From Letharia columbiana (taxonomy: Eukaryota; Ascomycota; Lecanoromycetes; Lecanorales; Parmeliaceae), in the NCBI RefSeq assembly GCF_014066305.1, contig NW_023501061.1, forward strand, positions 496,001 to 560,000: a DNA stretch of 64,000 nt. Direction: 5' to 3'. Below the pieces are notes generated by a model. The model was not told the origin of the DNA. It saw nothing but the letters and a program-made list of their open reading frames with translations, and did not search any database. Numbering within the stretch: the stretch's first letter is position 1; the number at the start of each line of letters is the position of its first letter. Below are positions 12,254-64,000 of this stretch, in pieces. The translations under genes were made by a program, and so were the position numbers.

Positions 12254-12286
12254 CACTCACTCACTCACTCACTCACTCACTCACAC
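12254..12286. repeat. (CACT)8 tetranucleotide microsatellite
   Basis: About eight perfect CACT units immediately upstream of the FSH hydrolase start, in its probable 5' leader. Confidence 0.9.
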
Positions 12287-12314
12287 CTTCGCCACCTCCA
12301 CCCCCCGCACCACC

Positions 12315-37600: not shown

Positions 37601-39343
37601 TCCAGGGTGCTGTTACCATTGCTCCTTAGAGCTATGAGCGAAAAGACCATAAAAGTCAGGACGGGAGCAATCACAGGGGTAGTGTAAGCGAAAAACATGC
37701 TTCCAATTAGTAGTCTTCGGAAACTTTTGGAGATCTCTAATTCTTGCAACCTCAGGCTGTGCAGATTATCGAACAGAGTGTCGGCTAAGCCGCACATCTT
37801 GATGCGTTTCATCGAGCCCAGCATTTTTGTGGTGGCGCTGATTCGTCTCTCTATAGCTTCGAGCCAGAGAGCCTGTCTTTGCACCACCAAGTTCATGACG
37901 AATAGCGAGCCTAACAATGAAACTATGATAGGGAAAACCTGTCAGCACTGGAGACGTACCTAAGTTGCCACCTGTGGTGACCACGGTCGCTCCTGGTCAA
38001 TGGGAAAGGTTGACTTGCCTATGGCCACTGCGATTGGAATAGCACAAGCTGCTCCAAGCTGCCGTTCCAGCAAGTAGATAGCAAGGGCAATCTCAATTGG
38101 ATTCGCCCAAATCTCGTGCATTGTCTGCCATCCGTTGGTGACCCTTTCGATATCAGCACTCATAAGAGTAAGTGATGTCGCAGGATCAGCTGCATTTGCT
38201 TTCAATGACGATGTCTTGGCGAACAGCATCGAGACAAGCCCTCCTCTGGCCATGGTTATTGCGCGATACGTCAGGTGCTGGTATTGGCCGGTCGTGATGG
38301 CAATGCCAGCGTACACGAGAAAGTATGCGCCGATCAGGCCATACCCTACGTTGTTCGGATCTTCGGACTTGGACCGCGAGGAGAAACTGATGGCGCGTTG
38401 GATCAAGAACGGTTGGCAAAAATTGAACGCGATGAGGCCTAAGCGCGGTGGAACCGCTGAGAGAAGACGCCATTTGAGCCTGCCGAAATATAGAAAAAGA
38501 AGCGACCGGGGAGCCTTGGTCGGCACATTTACCCAGGCTGTCTGTAGTCTGTCGTATAGGTAGCCGCATGTTAGGTGCTTGTCGAGCGGAAGCAAATCTT
38601 CCATAGAGAGAGACCTTTTGAAACCAGTTCGGAAAAGACCGTTGAGCCACCAGAAAACGGATCGGCTAAGTAATCCGCTGGTGGCTTCGGGCGAAGTCGA
38701 CTTCCATTCAGGATGCAAGATACTGCGTTTTTCGACCGCCTCACATATGATGAGGAGAAACTTGAGTGTAAATGCAACGGTAGTGACAGCAGCGACAGCA
38801 TTGTTGTAAGATTGCAGCCAAAGTGTTCTGACTCGAGCGGCATCAAGCAGAAGAGTCAAAGACAAATAGGACTGTATTACTAAGGAGGGTCGGATGGAGC
38901 GCTCGTGCTCCACGAAGGAGAGGATCGCTAATGCAAGAGCACCCACTGAGCTAAGGACAGCATCTGCTACCGATGCTGTGGTCTTGGTAGCTGTCGGCTT
39001 TGCCCATAGCGCAACGAGAGCGAGCTGCGTCGCTCCGAGAACTGCATAGAGAACCTGCACCGGCAGTTTCAGCTTCATTCCAACGAGCGGTGCAATGCGA
39101 TATGCAGCGTTGGGTGGGGCCACCTACCAGTTTAGACGCTAACCAAGAACTCGGATCGACTTTGATCGTTCTTCGAAAGAGGTATGAGATTCGAAAAGGT
39201 ACCACGATGAGCAGCAAGGCCATGGGGAGGATTGATAGAATGCTTTCTTCGAACAGTAAAGTGAAATCAAACCCGCCGCGGCAGCCTTCTGCATAAGGGC
39301 CAAAGGTGTCATCGACTTGCTTGCATGATTCCGGTGTCGCCAT
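34626..39343 (-). CDS. ABCC-type multidrug transporter, divergent from the NRPS
   Basis: Four exons: 39343-39128, 39054-38019, 37922-34961, 34854-34626, total 1,480 residues. Start MATPESCKQVDDTFGPY leads into GFDFTLLFEESIL, a common opening of this fungal ABCC group with an N-terminal membrane region (TMD0). Intron 38018-37923 has a GCAAGT donor and rejoins one transmembrane helix (PIAVAI to VSLLGSLF). NBD1: Walker A GPVGCGKT, signature LSGGQCQR, ILDDVLSGLD, but the H-loop position reads LASSSSRR with no His. NBD2 is complete: GRTGSGKSS, LSHGQKQ, LVLDEATSSLD, VAHKL. Transcribed away from the NRPS across 2.6 kb, it is the best candidate exporter for the peptide. Confidence 0.95.
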
Positions 39344-41903: not shown

Positions 41904-44900
41904 ATGAAAGTCGAACACGCAGCCATGTCCCAACTGAAAGCAATGTCTTGCAAGCTCTCTCTACTGGACGGGGAAGACACTACTAGATCTCGGCTGATGA
42001 TGACTGAAGTGGAACTTGAGAATCCAGACAGACTCCAGAATCTAGGCAAGGGAGACCGAGCATCTTTCAATGACATGCTATGTACCGCCTGGGGCCTTCT
42101 CTTGCGCTGTTATACAGGCCAAGACAATGTATCCTTCCATTTTGGACAGGGCAACGTTGATGGCCTGGCCTCAAAGTCAGCCATACCCCGAGACCGCCAG
42201 TCCATTTTTCGAATGGAGTTTTGCGAGCGGGAAAGTCTCTCGACGTGTGTTGCGAGGGCGAAAGATAGCTATGCAGATAATGAGCGGGGAGTTCCGTCTT
42301 TAGTCTCAACAGTATCAGACTCGAGATCTTTCTCTGCGTCACATTACCAAAACACCCATGTATGGGTCGAGGACGCTAGTTGTAAAGATACGCAAGATGC
42401 TGCTATTCAAAAGGTATTCTGATCCACCAGCGCTAGTTTCCATCAAAAAGTACAATCTGACATCTGCGATAGGGAGACCTTTGGCTCCTTGCGGCCTACA
42501 CATATAGTGGGGTGAAGCTGACTTTGAAATCGCATAGCTGCGATGTCTCTCCAGGCTATATGCAGATCCTTGCGAGCACTCTCGATCACCTATTGACTAC
42601 CATTGTTGTTTCGCCAGAGACGCAATTGGTGGACTTGAGTTACGTAAGCGACCGCCAGAAGCGTCAGATCGATGTTTGGAGTCAGCCTCCAATTGAGCAG
42701 TCCAATGAGTGCGTGCATGACATAATCCATGGACAGGTTCTGAAGAACCCCGAAACTGAGGCGGTGTGTGCATGGGATGGGTCTCTGACATTTCGTGATC
42801 TATGGATTCATGTTGAGCGCATGGGACGAGTCTTGTCAAGTATGGGCGCTGGCCCGGACGTCGTTGTGCCACTCTGTTTCGAGAAATCCATCTGGACGAC
42901 GGTTGCAATACTGGCTGTTCTGGAAGCGGGAGCAGGATTCTGCCTTCTAGACGCGACACAGCCAATGACTCGTCTTGAAGGTCTCACACGCAAGCTTGGG
43001 GCAAAGATTTTGCTGTGCTCACGGACGCATTACCCAAAGCTATCATCTCTTGTCGATAAGGTTCTTGTGATTGACGCCGAGACACTCAGGTGTTTACCTG
43101 GAAGATCTTCAGATATAATGACTCGAGCTTCGCCATCAAACATTGTCTATGTCGTTTTCACGTCTGGGTCGACCGGAGAGCCCAAAGCGATTGTCATTGA
43201 ACACGGCGCATTCTGCTCAGCTGCCAAAGCCCAAGAATCAGCGCTGTGCATGGACCGGGGCCTGCGCGCCCTACAATATGCGTCCTATGTGTTTGACGCA
43301 TCCATCCAAGAGACTCTTTGCCCTCTCATGCTCGGGGGTACTGTCTGCGTTCCGAACGAACAGTCGCGTATCAATGAGCTTGCCGCAGCGATCAATCAAA
43401 TGCGGGTAGAATGGGCCGTGCTCACACCTTCTGTTGCCAATTTCCTCACTCCTTCCGCAGTACCTCGACTGAGGACTCTGCTTCTTGTTGGGGAAGTAAT
43501 GAGCCAGGAAAACATCTCGACGTGGTCTTCTATTAAACTCATTAACGGCTACGGTCCAGCTGAATGTTCAGTCGCTGCAGTGGCAAATTCTAACCTGTCT
43601 GCGAACAAAGATCCTACTCAAATCGGACGTGGTATCGGCGTGCGGTGTTGGCTTGTCGATCCACAAAACCACGAGCGACTTCTTCCTCCTGGCTGCCTGG
43701 CAGAGCTTGTGATAGAGGGTCCTACTTTGGCACGAGGATATCTGAACGATCCACAGCGAACACGCGATTCTTTCATAGAGAGTCCTGCTTGGGCGACCAA
43801 TGGCGGCGGAGATTCCCCCAAACGATGGATGTACAAGACCGGTGACCTTGTCAGATACAACACTTCAAATGGTATGCTTCATTTTGTCGGACGCAAAGAT
43901 ACACAAGTGAAGCTTCATGGACAAAGGATTGAACTCGGCGAGATTGAATATCATCTCGCAAACGAACCAGCTGTTCACCAGTCCGTTGTATTAATGCCCA
44001 AGGCTGGTTTTTGTAAGCATCGTCTTGTGGCTGTGGTCTCTTTGCAGGCTATATCAGCAGCAAGCGTTGGAATGGACGGCTCCGCTCTTCAATTCGTCAA
44101 TAAAGCGAAGCAAGAGGAAACACAAGCTACTGTCGCTATGGCGCGCGAAAGAATCTCAAATCAGCTCCCTGCTTTTATGATTCCTTCTATTTGGCTTGTT
44201 GTCCAATATGTACCACTTCTGAAGTCTGGAAAGCTTGACAGAAAGGTGGTCTTCAATGAAGTCCAAGACATGAGTGAGGAGACATATGCCCAATGGGTTC
44301 GGGGTGAACAGAAGGAGGAAAAGCCAGCCACTGACCTCGAGGCCCGGTTAAGATCGATTTGGGCTGACGTCCTGAATCTACGGGCCACCCAGATTGGCCT
44401 GAAACAATCATTCCTGAACTTGGGAGGAGACTCCATATCCGCGATGATGGTACAAAGTCGATGCAAGAAGAACAAGATTGGCATCACAGTCCAAGATATC
44501 CTTCGCACAAGATCGTTGTCTCATCTCGCGACTGTCGCAGGAACGGTTGGCCAAAGCGTCGAAGAAGCTGAAGTGATCGAAGAAGATTTCGATCTCTCTC
44601 CAATTCAAAGCTTGTACTTTGAGTTCCCTGACCGCAAAGGCCACTTCAACCAGAGCGTCTTCGTACGTTTAGCGAAAGCCTTTCAGCCCGGCAATCTGCA
44701 TCAGGCGATCAAGGCCGTCGTGAACCGTCATTCAATGCTGCGAGCTAGATTCCGTCTGTCGGCCTTTGATGATGAGTGGAAACAACGGATCACTACGGAT
44801 ACCACAGGCTCGTACTCCTTCCGTGTGCACGAGTGCTCTTCGAGAGAAGAGGCTGAGCCCATAATGTCGAAGACTCAAGCCTCGCTTGATCCTGTAAACG

Positions 44901-47900
44901 GGCCGCTTTTTGCTATGGACCTCTTCAACGTTGAGGGTGGTAATCAGCTGCTTTTTATGACTGCTCATCATCTCGTCATTGATCTCGTATCTTGGCGCGT
45001 AATCCTCCAGGATGTAGAAGAGCTCCTCACGAATCCCACGTCGGTATTGGATGCACAACCGTCTTTGTCATTCCAGACTTGGTGCAAAAAGCAGGTGGAA
45101 CATGCCTATAAAGTTCCACTTAACTCTGTCTTGCCAGCTAGTAATCTACCACAGCAAAGCTTCGCATACTGGGGACTCGAAGAAGGTGAGAACACGTATG
45201 GCAACGTGTCCTGTGAAGGGTTTGAACTAGATACCCTAGCTACTGCCTTCATCACGTCGAAGTGCCATCAAGCTCTGCGTACCGATACGGTTGACGTACT
45301 AATCGCAGCAATGATGCATTCATTCTCGCAAACTTTCACGGATCGTGGACCCCCAACGATCTTTAATGAAGGTCATGGGCGCGAACCATGGGATAACAGC
45401 ACCGACCTCTCACGAACCATTGGCTGGTTCACCGCCATGTTCCCGATATACGTCGCGTCGTCAGAACCCGCCGATTTCGTGGACACTTTGCAGCGAGTCA
45501 AGGATTTCAGGCGTGCTGTACCCGCTAACGGAAGGCCTTATTTCGCAAGTCGACTACTTACGTCCAAAGGCGGAAAGAAATTTGGCAACCATTGGCCACT
45601 TGAGTTTACCTTCAATTACCTGGGAATATACCAGCAGCTTGAACGTGAGGATGCTCTGCTTCTCCCTGTCGAAGAGTTGGCAGGAGAAGCTCGTGGAGCA
45701 GGCGGCAAGTCTGACGTGGGTCACGACACCCCTCGCTTTGGCTTGTTTGAAATCTCCGCCGTCATTGCGCAGGGGAAACTTCGCTTCTCGTTCACTTTCA
45801 ACCGGCACATGAGCCATCAGGAGAAGATCATGGCCTGGATATCCGCATGTCAGGAGACTTTGACTACGGCGCCGCCAAATCTTGCCAAGATGGTGTATCA
45901 GCCTACACTGAGCGATTATCCCCTGATTTCGATGACTTACAATGGTTTACAGCAACTTATCACAGAAAGACTTCCCCGGATCGGAATTCCGGATGTGAGT
46001 AATGTTGAAGACATTTATAGATGCTCACAGATACAACAAGGCCTTTTGATCAGCAGGCAGAAGGATGCAGGGTTCTATGCAATTCATGGCACGTACAAGG
46101 TAAATTCAAAAGATGGTGTGCGCGTTGACAGCCACAGGATCGCAGATGCGTGGCAAAAGGTGGTCAATCGGCACCCCTCATTACGAACGATATTTGTCGA
46201 CAGTCTGAGCGAAGAAGATGCGATCTACGACCAGATCGTTCTCAAACATGTCGAGGCCATCATTGTGCGCCTGGACTGCGAGAGTGATATGAACGCCACT
46301 CAGGTACTCAGCTCGCAAAGACAGATGGAATACAAGGAACACAAGCCATCTCATCGGCTCACGATCTGCGAAACATCGACGCACCAAGTGTTTTGCAAAT
46401 TAGAACTCAGCCACGCAATTGTGGACGGTGCGTCCATATCAACCATCTTCCGGGAACTCGCGTCCTTCTACGAAGGTAAAATACTCTCCGAGACTGGGCC
46501 ACTGTACAGCAACTACATTGCCTTTCTGCAAAGCCAGCCGCATAAAGCAGGCATTGGGTATTGGAAATCATACCTCGTCGACATCGAGCCAACCAACTTC
46601 CCCGTGCTCAATGACGCCGCATCTATTGAACGTCAATTGCATTCGAAGCGCATCCCCATGGACGACGTCTCGGAAATCCAAAGCTTCTGCAGCCTGCATG
46701 GAGTGACGATGGCCAACGTTTTCCACACCGCATGGGCGTTAACACTCCAATGCTACACCGGCTCCAATGACGTTTGCTTCGGATATCTGATGTCCACCAG
46801 AGATGATTCTATAGAGGAAGTAGAACACCTCGTGGGATACCTTGTCAACATGCTAGTCTGCCGGATAACGCTCAATCCTGAAACACCGCTCATCGCAATT
46901 ATGCAGCAGGTCCAGACAGATCTCTCTGATGGCCAAGCTCATCGTCAAACTGCCTTGTCAGAAGTTCTGCACACTCTGAAGCTTGCCGGGTCTTCTCTCT
47001 TTAATACTTCTCTATCTTATCGAAAACTTCCCCTCGAGACCCTGGGCCAGAAGAATGCAATATCATTCGATGAGTGCTTCCCTTACTATGATCCCACAGA
47101 ATACAGCGTTTCCATCAACATCGAGGTCGCAGGGGAAAGCGCTGCCATCGACTTGGATTACTGGACCGACTGCTTGTCTGACGGACATGCCACGAATGTA
47201 ACAAATACCTTTCTCAATGCACTGAAAAATATCATAGATCACTTTCAATCGAATGTTGGACAGTTGCATGCAGTCAGCGAGTCGGACCAGGAACAAATGG
47301 CAACTTGGAACAGCTGCATGCCAGAGACGATAGAGAAGTGCGTTCACGAGGTTGTTGGTGTACAAACAGCTCTTCGTCCCAAAGCATCCGCAATCAAAGC
47401 TTGGGATGCAGAACTCACTTATGCCGAGCTCGACACCCTTGCGGGCAGACTTGCAGGATATCTCACTTTGTTTGGCGTCACTGCAGAGTCATACGTCTGT
47501 CTCTGCTTCGAGAAGTCGGCATATACCATTGTCGGAATGCTGGGTGTTTTGAAGGCTGGGGGTGCTTTCGTGGCCTTGGACCCCATGCATCCTATGGCCG
47601 CCCTTGAGATGCGTATCCAAGATACACAGGCACAAGTCATTTTGACATCTCCATGTTATACTGCAATGTTTGCGGGTATGGGAATTCATGCCGTGTCCAT
47701 TGACCAAGTGTTCCTTGATAAACTGCGGCCACTACAACATCCCCAGTCTTCACCAGCAAAGCCGCATGATCCGTGTTGCGTCATCTATACCAGCGGAAGC
47801 ACAGGGCAGCCTAAAGGTGTTGTACTGGAGCACAGGGCTCTGGTGACAAGCTCTAATGCACATGGATCAGCTTTGGGTGTTGGCCAAGACACACGGTTCC

Positions 47901-50900
47901 TGCAGTTTGCCAGTTACACATTCGATAACAACCTCGAGGAAATTTTCACAACACTCCAGCGCGGTGGTACGGTCTGTGTACCCTCAGATCAAGATCGCTT
48001 GAACGATCTTCCAGGTGCCGTGTCAAGACTTGGAGCTAATTTCATGGATCTGACGCCGACTGTTGCCACCTATCTAAACCCAGCCGAGATGCCAATGATC
48101 AAGACGCTGTGTTTAGGTGGTGAGGTTTTGACGAAAGCAGTGCTGGAGGTTTGGGGAGACAAGGTTGAGATCCACAATCAATATGGGCCGTCTGAGTGCT
48201 CCATCAACTCGACTCACAGGCCAGACGTTGGCAAATCGAGTGATTCGTCTAATATTGGACGCTCGGTAGGAAGCGTCTCCTGGATTGTTGACTCATCAGA
48301 TCATACTCGCCTCGTCGCAATCGGTTGTGAGGGTGAACTATTGATTGAGGGCCCCATACTCGCTAGGGGTTATCTCAACAACAAAGAGAAGACCTCGCAA
48401 GTCTTCATCGAAGACCCCAGGTGGGCGCTAAGCTTCGACATCGGTAGGAACCGAGGCACCCGCCGCATGTACAAGACAGGAGATCTAGTGCGATACAACT
48501 CTGATGGCACCATATCCTATATCGGTCGCAAAGATCAGCAAGTCAAGCTGCACGGCCAAAGAATCGAGCTGGGCGAGATCGAGTATCACGTTCGAACTCA
48601 TCTTGAGGCTGATTGGCATCATGCTGTCGAGTTAATCACTCCTGGCGACAGCGCAGATAGCATGAAAGCTCTCGCCCTCTTTGTCTGCCCTCAGGAGGAT
48701 GGTAGCGTTCCTGCTACCGTGCCCGAGAATGGACTGCTGCCATTGTCTACTACGCTACTGACTACTTTCAAAACCCTTGAGGCATCTTTGGCAAAGGCCC
48801 TCCCGAAGCACATGGTGCCTGCATTGTATATTCCCTTGGCAAGATTGCCCCTGACAAGTTCGGGAAAGCTTGATAGAAAGCAGCTGCATGCCCATGCGAA
48901 AGCCATGACGGAGAGCCAAGTGACAATGTTCAGGCTTGCGGGTAGCAGTGGTAGAGAGCCCTCGACTGATATCGAAAAGACACTGGCAGGCTTGTGGGAG
49001 TCTGTGTTGCATCTTGATACAGGATCAATCGGTATGGACGCCCAATTCTTCCGGATGGGAGGTGATTCAATCGCAGCGATTCGCCTGGTTACTGCCGCTA
49101 GATCCAAGGGAGTCAGCCTTACAGTTGCTGACATCTTCCGCAATGCGACACTTTCCGAAATGTCCAAGAATGCGTCTTTCTCTGACGCGGTCAACCCAGG
49201 ATCTGTACAAAATGGTCCGCAGCCGTTCGCCCTTCTCCCAGCCACCATACCGACCGACCTAGTCCTTAGCGAGGTAGCACAAATCTGCAAGATTAAAGAG
49301 ACAAGTGTTGAGGACATATACCCTTGTACCTCGATTCAAGAAGGCTTGATCGCCTTGAGCAGTAAACAGCCGGGTGCTTACGTCGCTCAAAACGTATACC
49401 GTCTCTCTTCCATCGACATTTCTAAGTTCAAAGAGGCTTGGGAGGCTGTCGTCGCCGCAGAGCGTATTCTGCGGACTCGCATCGTCTACACGGATTCTCT
49501 AGGATTCCTCCAAGTCGTTGTTAGCGAGTCGATCGACTGGTCTGAGCCGGGAAGCTTGGATGAGGTATCTGCCACGGAAAGAATCAAGCCAGCCTACAAC
49601 GGGGCCAGCCTTACCGGGTTCTCCGTCATCAACAAAGATCCCAAGCAAGCCTTTTTCGTGTGGACCGTCCATCACGCTCTTTACGACGGATGGTCAAGTG
49701 ATCTGCTTTTGGCCAAGGTCAAAGCATACTACGAGGGATATGAACCCGTCAAGAACATACCCTATTCAGCTTTCATCCAATACCTCTCCAGCGTAGATGC
49801 CACCGAGTCAGATAAATTTTGGCAATCAAAACTCGAAGGCACAACATCGCCACAGTTCCCAATGTTACCAAGGCCGACTTACGAACCACGCGTCACAAAA
49901 AAAATTATACATACCGCACCCCTCGCTCGAAGACCAGAGACGGAAATTACCGCGGCATCATTGATTCGCGCGGCATGGGCTTTGACCCTTTCGGCCTATT
50001 CCAATGCAGAAGACGTTGTCTTCGGTGAAACCGTGACAGGCCGCGATGCTCCGGTCTTGGGCATCGCCGACATGATCGGCCCCGCATTCGCGACAATCCC
50101 AGTACGAGTGCAGACTGGGCGCGACCTTACGATTGCTGAGTATCTGAAAACCCTCCAAGATGGATTTACGGAGGCAATGCCTTACCAGCATGCGGGCCTT
50201 CAGCGAATCAAGCGTATCAGCTCTGACACGGCTAAAGCTTGCGAGTTCCAGAACCTGATCGCCATCAATACTGAAGCTCCGGATGCCGGTCACGATTTTT
50301 GGCAGGCGGAGAATATTGAGACTGATGATTTCTTCACTTATGCGCTTACAGTCTCTTTTGATGTCGGCGCCACGGAAGTGAAGATGAGTGCGCACTATGA
50401 TCCTGACGTTCTTCCTGAGTGGCACCTGGCAAGACTGTTCCGTTACTTCGAATCTGCCATGACGCGGCTCAACTCAACAGATGGGATTTCTCTAGTATTA
50501 GGCGATATCAGAATCATACATGATGAAGACCATGCTTCGATACAGCAATGGAACTGCAGCCCACCAGTATCCGTCAACAAATGTATCCATGAACTTGTTC
50601 ATGACCAAGTACGGGCTTTGCCTCTCTCAACCCCAGCCATCTGTTCATGGGATGCTCAGCTCACGTACCAGGAGCTGGAAGATCTGGCTACCTCATTTGC
50701 CTGCCATCTGCGCGAGCTTGGCATAGGCCATCGATCCTATGTGCCGATCTGCTTTGAGAAATCTGCACTGACGATAATCGTCATGCTTGCAGTACTAAAA
50801 GTAGGAGCAGGCTTCGTAGCAATCGACGGGGACTCTCCGAAAGCACGCTTGCAGAGTATTGTGTCGGATGTTGAGGCTGAATGGGTTGTCTGCTCATCAA

Positions 50901-53900
50901 AATTTGAAGACGTGTGCGACTCGCTGGGTACTCAGACTGTCGTCGTTGACCTTCAAATGATCTCTGGCGCAGCCAAGAAGTCCAAGCCATTTCCAACCTG
51001 CGCGAGTAGCGATGTGGCATACATCGTCTTCACTAGCGGCTCAACAGGAAAGCCTAAGGGCACTCTGGTTCCTCATGAGGCTTTTGTCAGCGGTGCACTC
51101 GCCCACGGCCCGGCAATGCGAATGTCGTCAACATCTCGGGTGCTTCAATTTGCATCATATACCTTCGATGCCTCTATTGTGGAAATCTTCACCACGCTAA
51201 TTTTAGGTGGCTGTATTTGTGTCCCGGACGACGAAGCTCGACTGAACGACCCGACAAAGGTCATAAACGACATGAAAGTCGACTGGGCTCTGCTCACCCC
51301 ATCTTTCGCTCAGATGATCTCGCCGAAGGATGTCCCTGGCCTGAAAACATTGGTCCTCGGCGGTGAGGCTATGTCGCAAAACCATCTCTCCACCTGGGCT
51401 GATCATACGCATCTTATCAATGCGTATGGTCCCAGTGAGTGTGCGGTCGTGGCTACTGTGAATAGCCACGTTGCTTCGACCTCGAGTCCGTCGAATATAG
51501 GCAGAGCGGTCGGAGGTCGTTGCTTCATTGCTAATCCGCATGACCCTAATAAGCTAGTCCCCGTTGGTGTAATCGGTGAGCTTTTGGTCGAAGGTCCTAT
51601 TCTGGCGCGTGGTTACCTCAAGGAACCCGTAAAGACCAAGCAAGCATTTCTTCGCAATCCCGAATGGATTCAACCATTTTATCCAAATCAAAGCTCAGCG
51701 GTGCATATGGTCTACAGAACGGGGGATCTTGTCAAGTATGCTGAGAATGGGTCCATCCTCTATCTTGGCCGGAAGGACAACCAGGCAAAACTCCATGGCC
51801 AGAGATTGGAGCTCGGCGAGGTAGAACACCATTTGGGCCAAGTACCGACAATCCAACACGCCCTAGCCGTCATCCCCTCCCGAGGTCTCTATGAAAAGAA
51901 GTTGGTAGTGGTGCTCTCCTTCAAGCAAAGATTGGAATCATGCATGACCCACGAGACCCTCCACCTAGTTGCGCGGCAGGAAGCAGAACCCCGCGTTCGC
52001 AGTGTGCGGGACCACGCAGCCAGTCGCCTGCCGCCATACATGGTCCCCTCTAATTGGGTTGTCTTACAAGATATTCCTCTGCTTCCAAGCGGAAAATTGG
52101 ACCGGAGACGAATGGCAACATTGGTCGAGGACATGCCGGAAACCATCCATCGGGAGCTCTCTGGAATCGAGCCCGAGGATGGCCAGGTTCAAGGTTCGGA
52201 ATTGGAGCAGCGGCTCCAATTGGTGTGGTCCAGGATTTTACACCTGCCATTTGAACAGATTGGGCTCGATAAGAATTTCCTCTACCTTGGTGGCGATTCT
52301 ATATCCGCTTTGCAGGTCGCATCGCAGTGTCGGACTGAGGGTCTGGGTGTGACCGTCCAGGACATCATGCGTAGTCAGTCCATCTCCCACTTAGCCGAAC
52401 GCGTTACTTTGCCAAGGAGTGGCGAGTTTGGAAATGAAGAGTTTGACAAGCCGTTTGATTTATCTCCCATCCAGCGGTTGTTCTTCGACTGGGTAGGCGA
52501 TAACTTCGATCATTTCAATCAGAGTCTCATGGTGAAATTGGTCGAAAGACGAGATGTTGAAAAGGTTTCTGCCGCAGTCAAGGCTCTGGCCAACTCCCAC
52601 TCAATGCTCAGAGCGCATTTCGAGCGACAGCTTGACGGTGGATGGAAACAAAGACTGGACAAAGAGGCCTCCAATTCGTATCGGTTCACCGCGCACTCCG
52701 GCACGTTCTCATCTGGACGCATCAATTCCCTCGTAGAGCAAAACCAGAAGAGCCTGGATATTCAACACGGACCGATATTTGCGGTCGACCTTTTTGAAGC
52801 CGAAGAAGGTAATATGCAGGTCCTTTCAATCGTTGCGCATCATCTTGTCATCGATATTGTCTCGTGGGGTATAATTCTTGAGGATCTTGAGGCTCTACTT
52901 GTCTCAGGGAAAGCGATGACCCAGCCATCACTCCCGTTTCAGATTTGGTCCCGCCTTCAAAGTGAGCATTCGATGTCGAAACCTTCAGTAGGAATGCAGC
53001 TTTACAATGATACCCCGGTGGCCGACTACGCTTACTGGGGTATGCTAGACAAAGCAAACACATACGGCGCTGCTCATGAATTGGAGTTTAAGATTGACGT
53101 TGAGACCACGGGTAGACTGCTCGGTCCAGGTCAACAGCCGCTTCAGACCGAACTCATTGACGTACTTCTTGGCTCCATTCTCTACTCCTTCTGTCGATCT
53201 TTCCCTGATAGGCAATCCGCACCAGCAGTATTCAACGAGGCTCATGGCCGAGAACCTTGGAATCCGAGTCTTGACTTGACTCATACCGTTGGCTGGTTCA
53301 CGACTATTAGCCCAGTCTTCCTCCCTGCTGAAGCTACTCAAGATTTGGACATCACGAAGGTGATTCGCTGGGTCAAAGATCAACGGAGTCGCAGTGTAGA
53401 GAAAGGTCGTGAATACTTTTCGCATCGGATGTTAACGGAGAAGGGGAGAGAGGCTTTTGCTAGCCATTGGCCGATGGAAATAGCTTTCAACTACTTGGGT
53501 CAAGAGAAACAATTCAAGAGACATGGTGCGTTGCTTCAGCCGTTGGACGAAGTGTCAACCGGATCCGACATTGGCGCGTCGGTTCCTCGATTCGCTCTGT
53601 TCGAGATCTCTGCGTCAATCGTTGAGGGGGCATTGAAGATTGCTTTCTCGTACAGTCGGAATATTCAGCGCCAGACCGGCATCAAACTCTGGGTATCAGA
53701 ATTTGAGAGAGCTCTACGACGCTCTTCAGAGCGGCTTCTTGAGCTAGAACCTCAACCTACGCTCAGCAATTTCCCTCTTCTGCCGCTGGGCTATTCTGCT
53801 GTTGAGACACTCCAGGCCAGATTGCCTTCCATTGGTGTGCCGTCTCTAGCTGACCTCCAAGACGTCCATGGTTGCTCACCCATGCAGCAAGGTCTACTGC

Positions 53901-56900
53901 TCAGCCAAATCAAGAACACTGGGCAGTATATGTACCAGTCGATATTCTCAGTCGATTTCGTCGACTCGGCCAATCGCATTGACACTAAACGTCTTGGTCG
54001 CGCATGGGAGAGGGTTGTGGAGAGACATTCAACGCTGAGAACAGTCTTCATAGAAAGTGTGTCGCACGAGGGTCTCATGGATCAGGCAGTGCTCAAGAGC
54101 ACCTCACCCCGAATAGTATTGCTCGATTCCGACACAGCCATGGCAGTCGGTCTTCTTCGGGAACAGAAACCGCTGCGATTTACAGAGGCTCAACCGCACC
54201 ATCAGTTGACAATCTGCCTAGAGAGTAGCGGACGGGTTTTCTGCAAGCTGGAAATGAGCCATGCTCTCTGCGATGGTACCTCGATACCAATCATCTTGCA
54301 GGATCTTGCCCAGGCTTATACTGACCAACCATCAAAACTGGAAGAGGCGATGCGCTATAGTCAATACATATCTTACATCCAGCAGACCTCTCGGGATGAA
54401 GACGTCGCTTATTGGCGCCGTTATCTAGAAAATGTCGAGCCATGCTACTTTCCAGCTTTAGCGGATGGTAACAAGATCGAGAGAGAGCTACGAACACTTG
54501 AGCTAGAGCTTGAAGATGTTTCTCAACTACAGTCATTTTGCGCTCAGCATAGTGTGACACTTTCAAATGTGCTACAGCTTGTCTGGTCGTTAGTCCTTCG
54601 AGCTTACACCGGTAACGAGAACGTCTGCTTTGGTTACCTCAGCTCGGGTCGGGATGTCCCGCTCGATGGCATCCAGGACGCTGTAGGGCTATTCATCTCG
54701 ATGCTGGTATGTCGAATAGCTCTCAGCAATGACCTTGAGGTGGGCACTGCCCTCAAGCAGATTCAGGGAGACTACACGCAAAGTATGGCTCACCAGGCCT
54801 TCTCTTTGGGTGACATGCAACATGAGTTGCAGCTTTCTGGGAAGTCGCTCTTCAACACTGCTTTCACATTCCAGAGGCGGCCAGACGCACAAAACGAGAA
54901 GGCCGAGCAGCTGAGATTCGATGTGGTGGAAGCTTATGATCCTTCCGAGTACGATTTCACTGTGGGTGTAGAAGCCTGTAAAAACGACGTTGCCGTTCAC
55001 TTTAACTACTGGACGGACTTTGTCAGCGACGCTCAAGCTCGAAACATATCCGACACCTTTGGTCAGGTCCTGCGCTCCATAATGCGGCCTGAAAACCCAC
55101 ACCAGATGATTGGAGCTCTCGAGTTCTGCAGCGACGCTCACAGGATGCAAATTCTCCAGTGGAATCGACAACCTCTGCCAATGGTAGATCAGTGTGTTCA
55201 CGATGTTATCCGTCATCAAATGCAGTCTCTTCCGCCGACAACACCTGCAGTATGCTCATGGGACGGAGACCTGACCTATGGGGAGCTCATGTTGCTCGCA
55301 AAACGGCTTTCAAAACGCCTTGTAACCTTGGGGATTGGACCTGAAGCCTACGTGCCTATCTGTTTCGAGAAATCATCATGGGCCGTTGTGGCCATGTTGG
55401 GAGTGCTTCAGGCTGGTGGAGCTTTTGTTCCTCTCGAGCCGACGCACCCCGACACCCGAATAAAATTCATCATGGACGATATCAAGGCGAGAGTTGTCTT
55501 GACATCTTCGAAGTATGTGGAGAAGTTTGCAAGCTTTACCGAGGTCACAACTTTGGTTGTGAATGAAAATCTGACTAGCCAGGCTGAGCCTGTGGTAGAG
55601 CATGACGTGCCATTGCCAACACCGGACAATGCAGCATACTTGATTTTTACAAGTGGGACTACGGGCTTGCCGAAAGGGACTATCATCTCCCACCGTGCGT
55701 TCGCAACAGGTGCTACTAAGCATGCACCTGAGATCCTTATGACTAAAGCTTCGAGGGTCCTACAGTTCTCTAACCTCTGCTTTGATGCTTCCATCATGGA
55801 AATCCTCACCTCGCTGATAACAGGTGCTTGTGTATGTATTCCGAGCGATGAAGAGCGTATGAACAACATCTCTGGCGCAATACGTCGCATGTCAGTCAAT
55901 TGGACACTCTTGACCCCTTCGGTAGCGAAAGTGCTGAAGCCAGAGGAGGTTCCGAGCTTGCGAGTTTTAGTGACTGGGGGGGAAGCAATGCAAGCCGGAC
56001 ACATTGCCAAATGGGTCGGGAAGACCAGCGTTGTGAACGCGTACGGACCCTCCGAGTGCGCTGTGATTGCGACAACGAGCATCAAGGTAGATGGACATGG
56101 CCATGTGCTGAATGACGACCCCGCCGTGATTGGACGCGCTGTGGGGTGTAGGAGTTGGGTCGTGGATCCGCATGATCATGGTCGGCTTATGCCCGTTGGC
56201 GGTGTTGGAGAGCTTGTCCTTCAAGGCAATACTGTCGCACGCGGGTATTTGAACAATGAAGCGAAGACTGTGGAAGCATTTGTCGCTTCTCCAAGCTGGA
56301 TGCTCAGCGATGACCACGATGTGGCTGGTGGCTCGGCTAAATTGATCTATAAGACAGGTGATTTGGTGCGCTACAACTCGGACGGGACCATTGTATATAT
56401 TTCCCGAAAGGACAGCCAAATCAAGCTCAACGGTCTGCGAATCGAATTGGGAGAAATCGAGCATCATGTGAAGCGGAACGTACGTGGCGATCTCCAGACT
56501 GCGGTTGAGATGGTTGCTCCAGCAGGCCAACAATCCCTCTTGGCGATGTTCTTTGCCTCATCAGAATACGAAAAGCACTCGGAAGTTGTACATGCAGATA
56601 TGGATCCCTTGCTGCTGCAGATGTCCGACACAGCCATCTCACTTTGCAAGGCCCTCAAAGCCAGCCTTGCCGGAACACTCCCTACCTACATGATCCCATC
56701 TCTGTTCATCCCTCTCTCCCAAATGCCGTGGACCGCTTCAGGAAAACTTGACCGGCTCAGGTTGGCTAAAATAGTTCTATCGCTTTCGAAAGAGGATACA
56801 GCGCCATTCAAACTTGCAAGTGTCACCAACAAGCGAGATCCAACTACTGATACGGAGAAGAGGCTTCGATCACTATGGGAAACGGTACTGAGTCTGGAGC

Positions 56901-59900
56901 CTGCGTCCGCCACTCTCGACGACAGCTTCTTCGTACTTGGTGGCGACAGCGTGCAAGCTATGAGACTCGTTGCGGCAGCTCGGGCCGAAAAAATCTCCTT
57001 GAGCGTGCTCGACATCTTCCGCACGCCAACTCTTGCCGGGATGGCGAAGGCTTGCAGCCACTTGGAGGAGGAAGATCAAACTGTGCTCAAGCAGTTCGGC
57101 TTGCTCACCAATGTTGGAGCTCTCGATCAACTGCTGGATGAGATCGTGGCACAGTGTCGCGTGGAGAAGGAGGAGTTGGCCGATGCATATCCGTGCAGCC
57201 CTCTACAGGAGGGTCTCATCACCCTGTCTATTAAGCAGCCTGGTGCCTACGTTGCTCACAACGTGTTTCGCCTGCCCAATGCTGTTGACATTGTGCAGTT
57301 CAAGGCGGCATGGGAGAAGGCGGTAGAGGACGTGGACATCCTGAGAACCCGGGTCGTCCATACTAGCTTGTCGACCTTCATTCAAGTCGTGTTGAAGCAG
57401 GAGAGAATCGAGTGGTATACGGCAGACAGCACAGTAGATGCAACCAATGCAGCCCTACAGCTTCCGGAACACAGCGGTTCTCCGCTCATGAGATTCTCAA
57501 TTGTCGACAGTAACGATGGGGGGAACCGCTTTTTTGTGTGGTCGATCCATCATGCGCTGTACGATGGTTGGAGTATGCCAAGAATGCTACAGAGAGTGGA
57601 AGATATCTATTTCGAAGAATCACCTGTTTCACCAAAAGCGCCCTACTCTCACTTCATCAAGTACCTCAGAAACACTGATAGCCAGGCGTGTGACCGATTC
57701 TGGAAATCCAAATTCGACGGTTTACAGTCCCTGCAATTCCCAAAGATCTCCTCCTTGGATGCGGACCAAGACGCTCGAGCTGAGACACTGAAGTACACTG
57801 TACGATTGCCAGAAATGGCAAAGGGTACGGGTTTCACACTACCAACGATGATTAGAGCCGGCTGGGCCATTTTGCTATCTTCGCATACCGGAAGCGAAGA
57901 CGTGGTGTTTGGAGAGACCATGACCGGGCGCGACGTTCCCGTCGATGGCATCATCGATATGCTAGGACCTACTCTCACCACTGTACCCACAAGGATCCAA
58001 GTGAACAGCTCGTCGACCATCCTAGAATATCTGCAGAAAGTCAATCAGATGGCAGCAGATGTTATTCCATACCAGCATATAGGCCTGCAGCATATCCGCA
58101 GACTCACATCCGAGACAGCGACGGCTTGCGACTTTCAAAATTTGCTTGTGATCCAGACGGCCGAAGCCAACAGCGAGTCGAAGATGTGGGACCCTGTCAA
58201 TAGCGGTGTTGGTTCAAATTTCTTCACGTATCCGCTCGTCGTGGAGTGCAACGCGGATGCATCGAGTATCCACGTGGATGCCCACTATAATGAAAACGTC
58301 ATCAGCAAATGGCATGTCGAGAGGCTGCTCCGACAGCTCGAGTCTATTTTGAGTCAAATTTGTTCCGCTACGTCTGCCAATGATGTCAAGTTGAGTGAGG
58401 TGCAGGTGATTAGCGAGGAGGATGTCGAGACAATCCGATCCTGGAACAGCTACCAGCCAACTGTGGTCAACAAATGCATACATGATCTCTTTCTACAACA
58501 GGCAGTTCTAAAACCTCAGTCGCGAGCTGTACATGCCTGGGACGGTGACCTCACCTACACAGAGCTAAGAAACCAGGCGGGACTCCTGTCTAACCACCTA
58601 AAACAACTTGGCGTCGCACCTGAAGTCCTCGTACCATTCTGTATGGACAAGTCGCGATGGGCTCTTGTAGCGCAGCTGGGTGTACTCATGGCTGGTGGAG
58701 GCATCGTCCCCCTTGATCCGGCACATCCTTTGACTCGTCATTCGGAGATTGTACAAGATACAGAGGCCACCATCTTGCTGTGTTCACCTGCGTATCAAGA
58801 TCGATACACCTCCATGGTCCAAACGGTGATTCCCATTGATGAGCGATCACTATCTCAACTCTCAGTCCCCGAATACAGCAGCTCATCTGGTTTGCACGCG
58901 AATAGCAAGAACACTGCCTACGTCATCTTCACTTCTGGCTCGACGGGACGTCCCAAGGGAGTAGTTGTCGAGCACGAAGCTTTTTGTACGAGCTCAATGG
59001 CGTATTGCGAGGCTATGCTTATGAATCCCAACTCGCGCGTCTTCAACTTCGCTTCGGTCACTTTCGACGTTGGTCTGATGGAAAATTTGTCGCCTCTGAC
59101 CATAGGCGCGTGCGTCTGCATGCCTAATAACGAAGCGAAAATGACGGATACCGCCGCCGCCATTGACAGCCTCGGTGCCACATGGGCCTTCTTGACCCCA
59201 TCTGTCGCTAATCTGATTGACCCAGCTCGTGTTCCGTCTCTGAAAGTCCTTGTGTGCGGAGGTGAAGCAATGTCAAAGGAGAATGTCATCAAATGGGCTG
59301 ATCGTGTAACGCTGGTGAATGGATATGGCCCGACCGAAGCCTCTGTGATCTGCGTGGCTAATGGACATGTATCGAGAGATAAAGATCCTTCCAACATTGG
59401 CTATGCTCATAGTAATGGGTACGCATGGATTACCGAGCCCGGTAACCATGACCGGCTTGCACCCTTGGGATGCAGTGGGGAACTTCTCATGGAAGGCCCG
59501 CTTCTTGCTCGCGAATACCTCCATGATCAAACCAAGACGGATGCGGCTTTCATCAAGGACCCCGTCTGGGCTCGACGATTCGCCACCCCATCGGCTCCCT
59601 CTCGCCGCTTCTACAAGACTGGCGACCTGGTGAAGTATAACGAAGACGGGAGTATCGGCTTCATTGGCAGAAAAGACAATCAGATCAAGTTGCACGGACA
59701 GCGAATAGAGCTTGGGGAAATCGAACACAACATCGAGCTTCATACGAAAATTCAGCACGCTGTCGCACTATTACCCAAAGCAGGCTTGTGCAAAAAACGC
59801 CTTGTGGCGGTATTATCGATGTCCGATTTGTGTGTTGGATCAACAGCGTCAAAGGCCGATGAATGCCAACTCTTGTCCGGAGAAGATCGCATGAAGACAG

Positions 59901-62900
59901 CACAAGCTCAATTGAGAGATCTCCGTGAATTCCTGTCTAGTGTAATACCTACGTATATGATACCGGCCGTGTGTGTGCCCATAGAGGCAATACCCATCAT
60001 GGTTTCTGGCAAGCTCGACAGGAAGAAAGTAGAACGATGGATCGAGAACCTCGACCAAGCGTCCTACCGGCAGATTACGAGTCACGAGGACAATACTTAC
60101 GACGTAGCACCTATTACAGAAACGGTGCAGCAACTGAGGGAGGTCTGGGCTTCTGTCTTCAATTTTCCCATCGACAAGATCGACCCAGGCCAGTCTTTCA
60201 TGGGCCAGGGCGGTGACTCCTTGATCTCAATGACCATCATTGCTCGGTGCCGCAAGATAGGGATCATTCTTTCACTGCAGGAGATCCTGCAGAGCAAGTC
60301 TCTGTTCCAACTTGCGGGTCTGGTGGATTCAAGAGGTCAGTCCTCGAAAGCTACGACGACTAGGTTCCATGAGGAACAGACGGACCAAGTATTCGATCTC
60401 TCGCCCGTCCAGAAGCTATACTTTCAGCTGGCCGGGCCGGATTGCGATCACACGCGCGATGGCCGCTTCAATCAAAGTCAGCTGCTGCGCATTAAGCGCA
60501 AGACCGAGCCGAAGACCGTGCAAAATGCCGTCGAGGTTATCGTTCAGCAGCACTCGATGTTTCGAGCGAGGTTCTCCCAGAATCAGGCGGGCGCCTGGCA
60601 GCAGCGCATCAGCCCGCTCGCTTCAGGCTCTTACCGCTTCCGTGAGCATCATGTTGATCATTCGGCTCAGATCTTGCCGTTGCTTGCTGAGAGTCAGACA
60701 AGCTTGGACATCGAGCGCGGGCCCCTCTTCGCTGTGGAGCTCTTCAACACGGAAAAAGATGGACAAATCCTATCTCTCATTGCGCATCATCTGATCATTG
60801 ACGTCGTCTCGTGGAACATCATCCTTCCTCAATTAGAGGATCTACTCACCTTCAGTGTCGAAACAATAGAGAAGCCTCTGTCATTCCAAGTCTGGTGCGG
60901 GTTGCAGATTGAGCATACTAGTCAGAGGGACGCCTCCCACGTCAAAAGCATCCTGCCTTTTAACATCAAAAGAGCGGACATGGCCTTTTGGGGCATGTCA
61001 GATTGCGCCAACACGTATGCGGACGTCAAGCACGAGTCGTTCCTACTCGACAGGTCAACATCTCGGCTGGCTCTTGGAAAGTCGAATAAGAGTTTACGTA
61101 CCCAGCCGGTGGAGATCTTCCAGGCGGCATTGATTCATTCATTTCGGGGCCTATTCCCGCAACGCGCCACGCCAACGATCTTCAACGAAAGTCATGGTCG
61201 CGATGCCTGGGACACATCCGTAGATATCACAGGGACCACGGGCTGGTTCACAACGATTTATCCTCTCAATGTGTCAGCTGAGAGCGAGACGGCTAGCGCT
61301 TTTGAAGTGCTGAAACGGACGAAAGATCTCCGTCGCTCTGTCCCGGCAAACGGAAGGGAGTATTTTGCTCATCGCTACCTGACAGCGGATGGACGATGGC
61401 GCTTTGGCGACCACATGCCAATGGAAATTCTTCTCAATTATACAGGTCAATCACATCAGGATGAGCAAAGTGGCTCTCTGTTTCTGCCTTTCGACCTCGC
61501 TAAGAACGAGGACGACGAAAGACTCACGGCAGATGTTGGACCCAAAGCAACAAGAATGGCATTGTTTGAAATCTCAGTGGCAGCCACTAATGATCAGATC
61601 GGGTTCTCCTTCATGTACAACAAACACATGCAGCACCAGAACGAGATCCACAAATGGGTAACGAGTTGCCGAGACACCCTCAAAAACCTCGTGGAGCAAT
61701 TGGCCGATTCCACGCCGGAGCCAACGTTGAGCGACTACCCTTTGCTGCCTACCAATTACAGCGGACTTAAAAAACACGCCACCGAGACATTCCAAGATGT
61801 CGGAATTTCTAGCTTGGATGAGGTAGAAGACATGTATGTCACCGCGCCTACACAAGATGGATTGCTCCTATCGCAGATCAGGAATCCTGATCAGTATGTC
61901 AACTACGTCATCTCGGAGGTCCAACTGGCACAGAACAATTATCGGATTGATCCACAGCGGCTTGTAAGAGCGTGGCAGAAAGTTGTTGATCGTCATCAAT
62001 CTCTGAGGACCGCCTTCGTCTACAGTGTCTGCAAGGGTCATGCGTTTGACCAGATTGCGCTCAAGCACGCAAACGGAGGCGCTAAAATTGTTCGTTGTGA
62101 GGATTCGCAGTTTGAGACGGAGTTGGGCAAGGTGTCTTTGAGGGACGTGAATCGAGTAAGGCGGCCAATGCTCCCGCACCAACTCACCATTTGCACGACG
62201 ACGTCTGGTCGGTGCTATACGAAGCTTGAACTAAATCACGCGGTCATCGATGGAGGATCGGGAGCTTTGATAACGCGAGATCTAGGATTGGCTTACCAGG
62301 GTAACCTGCCAGAAGGTCCGAAACCATTGTACTCTGATTACGTCAGGTACATCAACAGCCTCGGCGAGGGTGCCGGGGTTACCTTTTGGAAGACTTACCT
62401 GAGCGGGATTCAACGCTGCCATCTGCCGACTTTGAATGCCACGCTGGGGGAACCAAAGCGCTTGAACGCCATCTATCTGCATTTCGATCGATTTGCGGAA
62501 CTTCAAGCTTTCTGCAGAGCAAACTCGTTCACGCTCTCCAATGTCATGCTTGCCGCCTGGGGTCTCGTCCTCAGACAGTACACTTCTACAGAAGATGTCT
62601 GTTTCGGCAATCTCACAGCAGGCAGGGATGCACCAGTGGACGGTATACAAGACTCTGTGGGCGCGTTCATCAACATGCTAGTGTGCCGTGTGAACTTTTC
62701 CCAGCCAAGCTCACTGAAGGCCATCATCCGCAGCGTTCAAAGCGACTACCTCGAGAGTTTGCCGCACCAACACTGCTCGCTGGCCAAACTCCAACATGAT
62801 CTTGGATTCTCTGGAGAACCACTGTTCAATACGGCTGTCTCGATTCAGAACCAGATCTCGACGCGGGATGCAGAGAAAGAGGGGGATGCGATTGAGTTTG

Positions 62901-64000
62901 AACCCATCAGTGATCATGACCCTACAGAGGTAAGTTGCAGAGCGCTTGCCTTCAACAACTGAACGATTGCTGACTGTAGCTCTACAGTACGCTGTTACAG
63001 TGAACATACGCAGTGCTCCCGGAGACGAAGGTGCTCGCATCAAGCATTGGACAACTCATGTCTCCGTCGAGGAGGGCGAGAAATTGACCAGGACTTACGC
63101 TCATGTCCTCGGCGCAATCCTGGATCATGCCAATCAAACAATATCGCAAATGGACAACGCGACGAATAAAAGCTCAGACCATTCCACTTCGAAACAATCC
63201 GGCGTGGCTGATAAGGCGCAAGTTCAGAACGATAACCAGGTGTCAGTAGAGAAGACAAAGGCTAACCAGGGCTCAACGCTTGGCAAAGATCTTCCCAAAC
63301 GACCAATCTTTCCGCGACAGAGAACTCGCGAGATCATCAAGGCGGCCGTGGGCGAGACCATTGATGAAATGCCTACTCGACCAAACCTACCCCGTCAAAG
63401 AACCCGCGATATCATCAAGGCTGCCGTGGGCGAGACCATCGACCAGCTGAAAAAGAGTGGGTCCTTGGTTCGCCGCGTGTCTAACTCGGCAACCCTGACA
63501 GATATCGTGGGCCGCCAGCTTCACAGCCGGAACGGTTCGAATGCAGTGAGTACGGACGCGAAGGATGTTTTGTCATCGAACGAGCCTAAAGAGGCATTGA
63601 GCAGCTCACGCTACGAGGCAGAGCCCCCGGAAGAAATGTGTAAGATTCTTCGCTCGCTGTGGAGTCCGCTGTTGAACATCCCGGAAGAGAATATACGCGC
63701 GGACAACTCATTCTTCGGCCTTGGAGGCGATTCGATCCTGGCTATGGAGTTGGCCCGTGGTGCTCGTGAACACGAATTGACGCTGACAGTGGCGGATATC
63801 TTCGGCTCGCCCTCTTTCTCGGACATGGCGCGAGTCCTTGCCAGCTCGGCGAAGCGAAGGCAGGAGCGCTTGAATGGCGCGCAGGTGGCTATCCTCTCGG
63901 AGATTAGACGTGGATCGGTGACGGTGGAGCAAGAAGACAGTCGCTTTTCCCTCGTCGACTCCACGAACACCGAAGCCTTCATCCAGGATTACATCTGCCC
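41904..64000 (+). CDS. Giant multimodular nonribosomal peptide synthetase, six carrier domains, 3' end outside window
   Basis: Exons 41904-42413, 42473-62929 (20.5 kb without a stop) and 62988-64000+, over 7,320 residues here. Intron 42414-42472 restores DLWLLAAYTYS; intron 62930-62987 restores DPTEYAVTVNIR. Domains by approximate residue: half-C 1-240; A1 250-760, T1 820, E1 875 (HHLVIDLVSW); C2 1350 (SHAIVDG), A2 1790, T2 2368; C3 2450 (HHALYDG), A3 2875, T3 3445, E3 3500; C4 3967 (SHALCDG), A4 4412, T4 4993; C5 5073 (HHALYDG), A5 5505, T5 6082, E5 6145; C6 6620 (NHAVIDG), linker, T6 7235, then AFIQDYICP, which looks like the start of a terminal C domain. All six carriers keep GGDS. Epimerases in modules 1, 3 and 5 predict D residues there. 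Module 6 lacks an A domain. The order fits the Fusarium NRPS4/fusahexin type, as recalled. Release is probably macrocyclisation by the terminal C domain. Confidence 0.97.
63300..63455 (+). repeat. Tandem 78-bp (26-residue) repeat in the NRPS linker
   Basis: Two adjacent copies start at 63300 and 63378. Each encodes RP-(I/N)-(F/L)-PRQRTR-(E/D)-IIKAAVGETID. Copies differ mainly at third codon positions and a few residues, so the duplication is retained at protein level. It sits between C6 and T6, where an A domain would be expected. Confidence 0.9.

Follow-up and report, generated by a model that had tools for sequence, protein, structure and literature searches.

The principal point of reference for the locus analysed here is the synthetase of fusahexin, the primary report of which is Westphal 2021. 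This enzyme is identified as NRPS4 of Fusarium graminearum (FGSG_02315; PMC10455296) and is described in a review as having five modules, the fifth of which is reused to supply both D-Leu and L-Leu (PMC10967133); the review and citing papers give the residues of fusahexin as three Leu, one Ala, one allo-Thr and one Pro. Borrowing of A domains is also described for other synthetases. In SidC, A3 charges T4 within a joined construct and also T5 when two proteins are assayed together, aided by the upstream C domain, so that charging between separate chains is possible (PMC10192304), and bacterial CmnI, of the capreomycin system, borrows the A domain of another module (PMC12400406). ChNPS4 of Cochliobolus was placed in the EAS subfamily in a 2010 survey (PMC2823734). 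The charging of the sixth carrier, which a preliminary description of this DNA had named as the biochemical question of interest, has therefore been addressed before: the review gives an answer for NRPS4 in its account of module 5 reuse, and SidC provides a biochemical precedent.

In the window, the whole 64,000-nucleotide stretch of Letharia columbiana DNA that was analysed, an NRPS gene begins at position 41904 and runs on the + strand to 65861, with an open frame over two introns and no internal stop (Table 1). It encodes a product of 7,946 aa and overruns the window end, the last 1,861 bases of exon 3 lying outside. A domain search of the full protein, including the part to the right of the window, revealed CT and a degenerate T7; the whole protein, read to its end, has the order (C)-A-T-E-C-A-T-C-A-T-E-C-A-T-C-A-T-E-C6-T6-CT-T7. 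E domains follow T1, T3 and T5, in agreement with the preliminary description, which had placed them in modules 1, 3 and 5, and the D-L-D-L-D-x product pattern that it predicted is supported. The divergent neighbour of the NRPS gene is an ABC transporter gene, whose N-terminal part lies further right than the tabulated stretch.

Table 1. Features of the NRPS gene and its neighbour, in window coordinates continued past the window end at 64000.
Feature	Position	Strand	Remarks
ABC transporter gene	34870-37917	-	two ABC_tran stretches and one ABC_membrane stretch
NRPS exon 1	41904-42413	+	
NRPS intron 1	42414-42472	+	GT..AG
NRPS exon 2	42473-62929	+	
A1	42590-44149	+	841 bits (own A profile); pocket code DAQVLVGVA
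T1	44309-44530	+	
E1	44543-45913	+	motif HHLVIDLVSW
A2	47219-48784	+	pocket code DNEDCGQIN
A3	50462-52018	+	pocket code DAVLVGAVV
T3	52175-52396	+	
E3	52406-53767	+	motif HHLVIDIVSW
A4	55073-56653	+	pocket code DAMLVGAVI; candidate donor for T6 as well as T4
A5	58355-59920	+	pocket code DVMFVGGVI
T5	60095-60316	+	
E5	60344-61732	+	motif HHLIIDVVSW
C6	61781-63200	+	residues 6607-7060; post-E type condensation domain, NHAVIDG; split by intron 2
NRPS intron 2	62930-62987	+	GT..AG; interrupts C6
NRPS exon 3	62988-65861	+	beyond window after 64000
Linker helix motif	63321-63371 and 63399-63470	+	two tandem copies
T6	63609-63830	+	residues 7197-7270; FFGLGGDSI; Ser7238 at 63732-63734; no A domain
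CT	63987 to ~65327	+	residues 7323-7769; terminal condensation domain, SHAQYDG; mostly outside window
T7	65553-65555 (Leu for Ser)	+	degenerate carrier after CT; outside window

A sixth module without an A domain, with a linker of about 150 residues ahead of an intact carrier, had been proposed in the preliminary description, and it is borne out: the gap between C6 and T6 is 137 residues long and holds no A domain, and the serine of T6 is kept. In this protein and its first 120 homologues, the C-to-T distance has a median of 546 residues in C-A-T units (145–702; n = 514) and of 113 residues in C-T units (67–221; n = 65). Exon 3 gave no AMP-binding match (Pfam, E up to 0.001), and the A-domain core motifs whose presence would have refuted the earlier reading are absent between C6 and T6 both here and throughout the 148 compared proteins that extend to T6. 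The compared set was made up of 203 distinct homologues, taken from the best 120 listed of 718, of 2,499 and of 1,859 matches in three protein searches, and the protein itself, 204 sequences in all, many of the homologues being unnamed or from metagenomes, so that the sequences are not independent species. In all 148 proteins long enough to include T6, the last E is followed by no further A domain, so that the missing A6 is genuine and not a fault of the assembly. The remaining 56 proteins end at C6 with at most 61 residues left, a pattern that would follow from gene predictions breaking off at an intron such as the one within C6 here. That A6 exists and is missing from this assembly or annotation only has a probability close to nil, given the identical gap in 148/148 proteins and a linker that holds a conserved motif of its own. 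A remnant of an A domain in the C6-T6 linker was also rejected: permissive scanning with a profile of the protein's own A domains gave a best score of 10.1 bits over 148 linkers, against 820–853 bits for A1 to A5. The A-less sixth module is therefore not peculiar to Fusarium and is common to the 148 proteins, from many fungi, lichens included.

Both remaining domains of the sixth module are conserved. The T6 serine position holds S in 145 of 148 proteins, with a gap in the other three, and the C6 motif xHxxxDG is present in 139/141. The preliminary description had left two fates for T6, loading by an upstream A domain or no loading at all; the first stands by analogy with SidC, whereas this conservation makes it very unlikely that T6 is never charged and serves as a relay or relic in a synthetase of a pentapeptide. 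Loss of A6 could leave such a relic behind, but fusahexin, as the review describes it, has six residues from five modules (PMC10967133). Among the 84 full-length proteins with the complete five-A order, the closest paralogue of T6 is T4 in 48, T2 in 32, T3 in three, T1 in one and T5 in none, and that of C6 is C4 in 49 and C2 in 35 (84/84). These resemblances suggest that the ancestor would have been a two-module unit (C-A-T-E, C-A-T) in triplicate, from which A6 was probably lost, and lost early, before the compared lineages separated.

The C6-T6 linker carries a short conserved helix motif in 141/148 proteins, found in shuffled controls in 2/740 at >=5 bits and 0/740 at >=8 bits. The T7 motif occurs in 141/147 proteins, and the serine is missing in 141/141. 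Unlike the Letharia enzyme, Trichothecium P0203 (aligned over 33% of the search region at 43% identity), which we take to be the only relative in the compared set from the order of Fusarium, has neither the linker motif nor T7. Searches of the open-licence literature showed no account of the linker motif, of a T7 without its serine or of the register shift discussed below, and the linker helix and the serine-less terminal carrier stand as conserved parts without known function.

The A domain that charges T6 was sought in the pocket codes, which were read from alignment columns in the 84 complete proteins; dropping proteins with a gapped code position left 82 for A3, 83 for A4 and 78 for A5. 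The code of A3 of tentoxin synthetase served as the fungal Leu reference (PMC4999850, Table 1). The available parts of papers on cyclosporin, peptaibiotics, pneumocandin and scopularide held no usable pocket codes, and the pocket-code strings had no match in the open-licence literature. A4 matches the tentoxin synthetase Leu domain at 7/8 positions here, is nearest to that code in 82/83 proteins, and has the code that varies least among the five (7.89/9 positions shared over 1,200 sampled pairs; 4.5–6.6 for the others). A3 is nearest to Leu in 72/82 proteins. A1 leans to Leu (mean 3.96/8, vs 2.35 for Thr), is nearest to Leu alone in 34/84 proteins, and in Trichothecium P0203 matches Leu at 5/8 and Thr at 1/8. 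A5 is nearest to Ala alone in 39/78 proteins and to Leu alone in 19/78; here it matches one Ala code at 5/8 and the other at 2/8, and the Leu, Glu, Asn and one Gly code at 4/8.

These codes bear on the published proposal for NRPS4 (PMC10967133), according to which A5, the A domain nearest to T6, would charge both T5 and T6 by using module 5 twice, with position 6 repeating the residue of position 5 in its L form. In the published register fusahexin ends in D-Leu-L-Leu; in both SidC (A3) and SidD (A1), an A domain loads the module that follows it (PMC10192304); and A5 codes are on average slightly nearer to Leu than to Ala (4.49 vs 4.28 of 8). The register, however, demands Leu for A2, Thr for A3 and Pro for A4, and instead A3 and A4 are both Leu-like and form the most similar code pair in 59/84 proteins; A2 matches the Leu code at only about 2/8 positions, and A2 and A5, both assigned Leu, share a mean of 2.1/9. 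Donation by A5 is a tentative reading, close behind that by A4.

Three cuts of the fusahexin ring keep D at positions 1, 3 and 5, and were scored, Pro excepted, in the 75 proteins without a gap in any code. Against a small reference set (one code for Leu, two for Ala, one for Thr and none for Pro), and in proteins most of which need not make fusahexin, the cut allo-Thr-Pro-Leu-Leu-Ala-Leu was the sole best in 68/75, with a mean of 4.85/8 against 2.91 for the published cut and 3.34 for the third; the published cut was the sole best in three proteins and tied in two. The lead of the shifted register comes mainly from A3 and A4; this register requires A1 to be Thr, yet A1 leans to Leu, and A5 to be Ala, where A5 is split between Ala and Leu. 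Since A3 and A4 are leucine-like, a fusahexin register shifted by two, with T6 charged by A4, is favoured on these codes, although it has poor support from A1 and A5. The class of a T domain may depend on whether E or C lies downstream of it and not on its A domain, so the resemblance of T6 to T4 speaks only weakly for A4. With its leucine-like pocket A4 may be the likeliest single donor, at somewhat less than an even chance.

Charging of T6 in trans, by a free-standing A domain or one of another NRPS, has precedents in CmnI, which uses CmnA-A1 in trans (PMC12400406), and in the two-protein assay with SidC A3 (PMC10192304); it is nevertheless improbable here, the A-less module being kept over many lineages, in which a conserved partner gene would be required. 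A gap at A6 that is common to relatives in many fungi makes it most likely, by analogy, that the enzyme borrows an upstream A domain for its sixth residue. The architecture, the absence of A6, the intact T6 and C6, their wide conservation and the paralogy of the modules, all read from sequence, fit a synthetase of cyclic hexapeptides of the NRPS4/NPS4/Pes1 architecture that would have lost A6 early and in which, with good probability, an A domain of the same synthetase charges T6. We infer that this domain, in the manner of SidC A3 with T4 and T5, would reach across modules to place a residue on T6; C6 would then link the peptidyl on T5, in D configuration, to the L-aminoacyl group carried by T6, and CT would close a six-residue ring. 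A more specific and rather doubtful version is that A4 charges T6 over the skipped C-A-T-E module, that the fusahexin assignment is off by two, that the linker helix in place of A6 helps T6 to reach A4, and that T7 is a structural part of CT. The codes of A4 and A5 differ and may predict different residues at position 6, which makes the charging question testable. If A4 is the donor, the printed fusahexin assignment would need correcting, and such enzymes could usefully be read with the rule that an A domain may reach beyond a complete module.

In its sequence the Letharia columbiana NRPS fits as a new member of the NRPS4/NPS4/Pes1 architecture group, and the NRPS4-type kinship suggested earlier is supported by the architecture and by homologues that bear the names 'nonribosomal peptide synthetase 4' and 'Pes1'. 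It has the five A domains of the group, E in modules 1, 3 and 5, and an ABC transporter gene beside the NRPS, a putative counterpart of that in the Fusarium cluster. The nearest listed homologues are from lichen fungi (over the search region, 93% for Cornicularia and 90% for Usnea), in keeping with a lichen-forming host and not a Fusarium; the record of Usnea florida P0013 (Pes1), which matches at 90% across the entire search region, breaks off at C6 and shows an identical order up to that point, and Xylogone P0176 (Pes1) ends C-T-CT-T7 without A6. The 'nonribosomal peptide synthetase 4' proteins of Stemphylium and Curvularia were found via intermediate queries and have the same order apart from A1. 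The NPS4 proteins of Pleosporales (Stemphylium P0189, Curvularia P0197, Bipolaris P0184) share the C6-T6-CT-T7 end and the lack of A6 but begin at T1, A1 being absent too, as in 47 of the 204 sequences. Among the best 120 of 718, of 2,499 and of 1,859 matches, none carries a Fusarium name; NRPS4 of F. graminearum, as described in the review, is alike in its five modules, six-residue ring of alternating D/L and ABC transporter gene in the cluster (PMC10967133), and differs in its host and in that the A-domain codes of the Letharia protein do not have to yield fusahexin. As in the capreomycin system, where CmnI is charged by CmnA, an A-less module would be served by the A domain of another module, although that system is bacterial and consists of separate proteins (PMC12400406). 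The likeness to SidC, the ferricrocin synthetase, is that of A-less C-T modules before a terminal CT, charged there by an upstream A domain (PMC10192304); SidC has two such modules and makes a siderophore, whereas the Letharia enzyme has one, with its carrier serine intact, directly ahead of CT.

Joined across its two introns with bases fetched from beyond the window, the exons of the NRPS gene (Table) encode 7,946 residues with no internal stop. Own-domain profiles and Pfam on pieces gave the order partial C, A1 T1 E1, C2 A2 T2, C3 A3 T3 E3, C4 A4 T4, C5 A5 T5 E5, C6 T6, CT, T7 (C, condensation; A, adenylation; T, carrier; E, epimerization; CT, terminal condensation; numbers denote modules). 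The gap between C6 and T6 is 137 residues, as against a median of 546 between C and T in the C-A-T units, and no A-domain signal was found in it by Pfam or by a scan with our own A-domain profile. The sixth module is therefore without an A domain, as the preliminary description had claimed; extending the domain search to the right of the window, a check it had proposed, added CT and T7 behind T6. The Fusarium cluster for fusahexin (synthetase NRPS4) is also described as having an ABC transporter gene (PMC10967133), and the AT-rich stretch to the right of the NRPS gene is as left by repeat-induced point mutation.

Table. Features in and around the window (bases 496001-560000 of contig 26, 52.2 Mb genome); L009, sequence beyond the right edge; C26, contig coordinates
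Feature	Position	Strand	Remarks
Polyketide synthase piece	within 3-5682	-	with acyltransferase; left edge
Cytochrome P450	4351-5682	-	
Serine hydrolase (FSH1) match	12048-13043		
ATP-grasp match	21155-22708		
Second ABC transporter gene	24053-27522	+	
IMP 5'-nucleotidase (ISN1) match	32357-33124		
ABC transporter gene	34870-37917	-	divergent; by matches
NRPS gene	41904 to past right edge	+	three exons; introns 42414-42472 and 62930-62987
Partial C domain ahead of A1	41904-42413	+	C-terminal part only; own-domain profiles
A2	47219-48784		
Linker motif, tandem copies	63321-63470		
T7, behind CT	L009:5298-5858 (65298-65858)	+	Leu for Ser
AT-rich stretch	L009:6700-10000 (beyond 66.7 kb)		GC 22%, TA/AT 1.19
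Further C domain	C26:489119-490402		in a 1,653-residue open frame; left of window by about 5.6 kb

The best 120 matches of each of three protein searches (718, 2,499 and 1,859 found) yielded 203 distinct homologues (P numbers). Together with the query, 148 of 204 proteins reach T6 and in none of the 148 is the last E followed by an A domain, which argues that the A-less sixth module is not an assembly artefact; the remaining 56 end at C6 with at most 61 residues more, where this gene carries an intron. Among the matches listed, lichen proteins are the closest that carry a name: over residues 6180-6819 of exon 2, identity is 93% with the protein of Cornicularia and 90% with that of Usnea florida, and one further protein stands at 99%. 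Named homologues come from Usnea, Caloplaca and other lichens, Trichophyton, Talaromyces, Alternaria, other Pleosporales, Chlorociboria, Chaetomium and Trichothecium. Separately, 47 of the 204 proteins (P0184, P0187 and P0189 among them), many from Pleosporales, start at T1 without A1 and so have two carriers lacking an A domain of their own.

Besides this wide conservation, the analysis adds the module's likely origin by loss. In 84 proteins with the complete five-A order, domains were matched against the paralogous ones of their own protein: C2, C4 and C6 form one group and C3 and C5, mutually closest in 84/84, another, and T1, T3 and T5 stand apart from T2, T4 and T6 with few exceptions. 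Because of this grouping, the protein looks like a tripled two-module unit whose last copy was deprived of its second A domain. Within its own protein T6 comes closest to T4 (48 proteins), T2 (32), T3 (3) or T1 (1), never to T5, and T5 comes closest to T1 (54), T3 (28) or T6 (2). By this comparison T6 is no duplicate of T5, and since the class of a T domain may follow the domain downstream, T6 paralogy supports ancestry more than donor choice.

The analysis further adds two conserved parts. The first is a motif in the C6-T6 linker, where a roughly 25-residue profile (consensus PDLRSLVRECVQEVIEQLFKSGELV) scores at least 12 bits in 141/148 linkers; shuffled linkers reach 5 bits in 2/740 cases and 8 bits in 0/740, a contrast that is flattering because the profile was refined on the same linkers. 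The pattern of this motif suggests a helix; it is doubled in six proteins, the query included, and missing in seven (P0170, five of Chaetomium and kin, namely P0182, P0186, P0196, P0201 and P0202, and P0203 of Trichothecium). The second is T7, a terminal carrier-like domain that aligns with the carrier profile at an hhalign probability of 98.5 and, given alone, reaches 21.0 bits with Pfam PP-binding (cut-off 20.8). Its motif is clear in 141 of the 147 proteins with CT, the last residue being I (97), L (30), V (8), F (5) or M (1), never S; T1-T6 together have S in 1,154 and a gap in 6 of 1,160. Among the other six, the tails of P0035, P0038, P0073 and P0191 are short or gapped, that of P0033 reads as unrelated sequence, and the predicted P0203 protein stops directly behind CT, so that Fusarium NRPS4 may also lack T7.

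Pocket codes (A-domain specificity residues) of this protein, taken from aligned columns, are DAQVLVGVA (A1), DNEDCGQIN (A2), DAVLVGAVV (A3), DAMLVGAVI (A4) and DVMFVGGVI (A5); those given for tentoxin synthetase of Alternaria are DALLVGAVS for Leu and DVWFCGGTF for Ala (PMC4999850, Table 1). The nearest code is Leu for A4 in 82/83 proteins and for A3 in 72/82, and for A5 it is Ala alone in 39/78, Leu alone in 19 and a tie of the two in 7; the A4 code is the most conserved of the five (7.89 of 9). The A2 pocket, with two acidic residues, is largely conserved, DNEDAGQIN being commonest (25/84); its code is reminiscent of hydroxyornithine-type codes, whereas fusahexin has no basic residue.

Fusahexin is cyclo(D-Ala-L-Leu-D-allo-Thr-L-Pro-D-Leu-L-Leu) (PMC12340964; PMC10967133), with module 5 reused for D-Leu and L-Leu according to a review (PMC10967133). 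Three cuts of the ring keep D at 1, 3 and 5. Scored out of 8 against reference codes, with Pro left out, in the 75 proteins whose codes have no gap, the cut allo-Thr-Pro-Leu-Leu-Ala-Leu was best alone in 68 and averaged 4.85; the published cut averaged 2.91 and the third 3.34. With this shifted cut T6 would need Leu from A4 or A3, not A5, an alternative donor that can be put to the test. Several points count against this cut: its lead is owed to A3 and A4; A1, needed for Thr, averages 3.96 for Leu versus 2.35 for Thr; and A5, needed for Ala, averages 4.28 for Ala versus 4.49 for Leu. For P0203 of Trichothecium the scores from A1 to A5 are 1, -, 7, 7 and 4 with the shifted cut and 5, 3, 2, 7 and 2 with the third. 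Precedent for the charging of an A-less carrier comes from SidC, whose A3 is reported to charge T4 when a joined construct is used and, in an assay with two proteins, T5 as well (about 35% in 60 min); carriers lacking the C domain ahead of them are described as staying uncharged (PMC10192304). The preliminary observation is sound and its interpretation right in kind, but the charging of the sixth carrier, put forward there as the biochemical question of interest, has already been described for fusahexin and is, by analogy, understood in outline from SidC.
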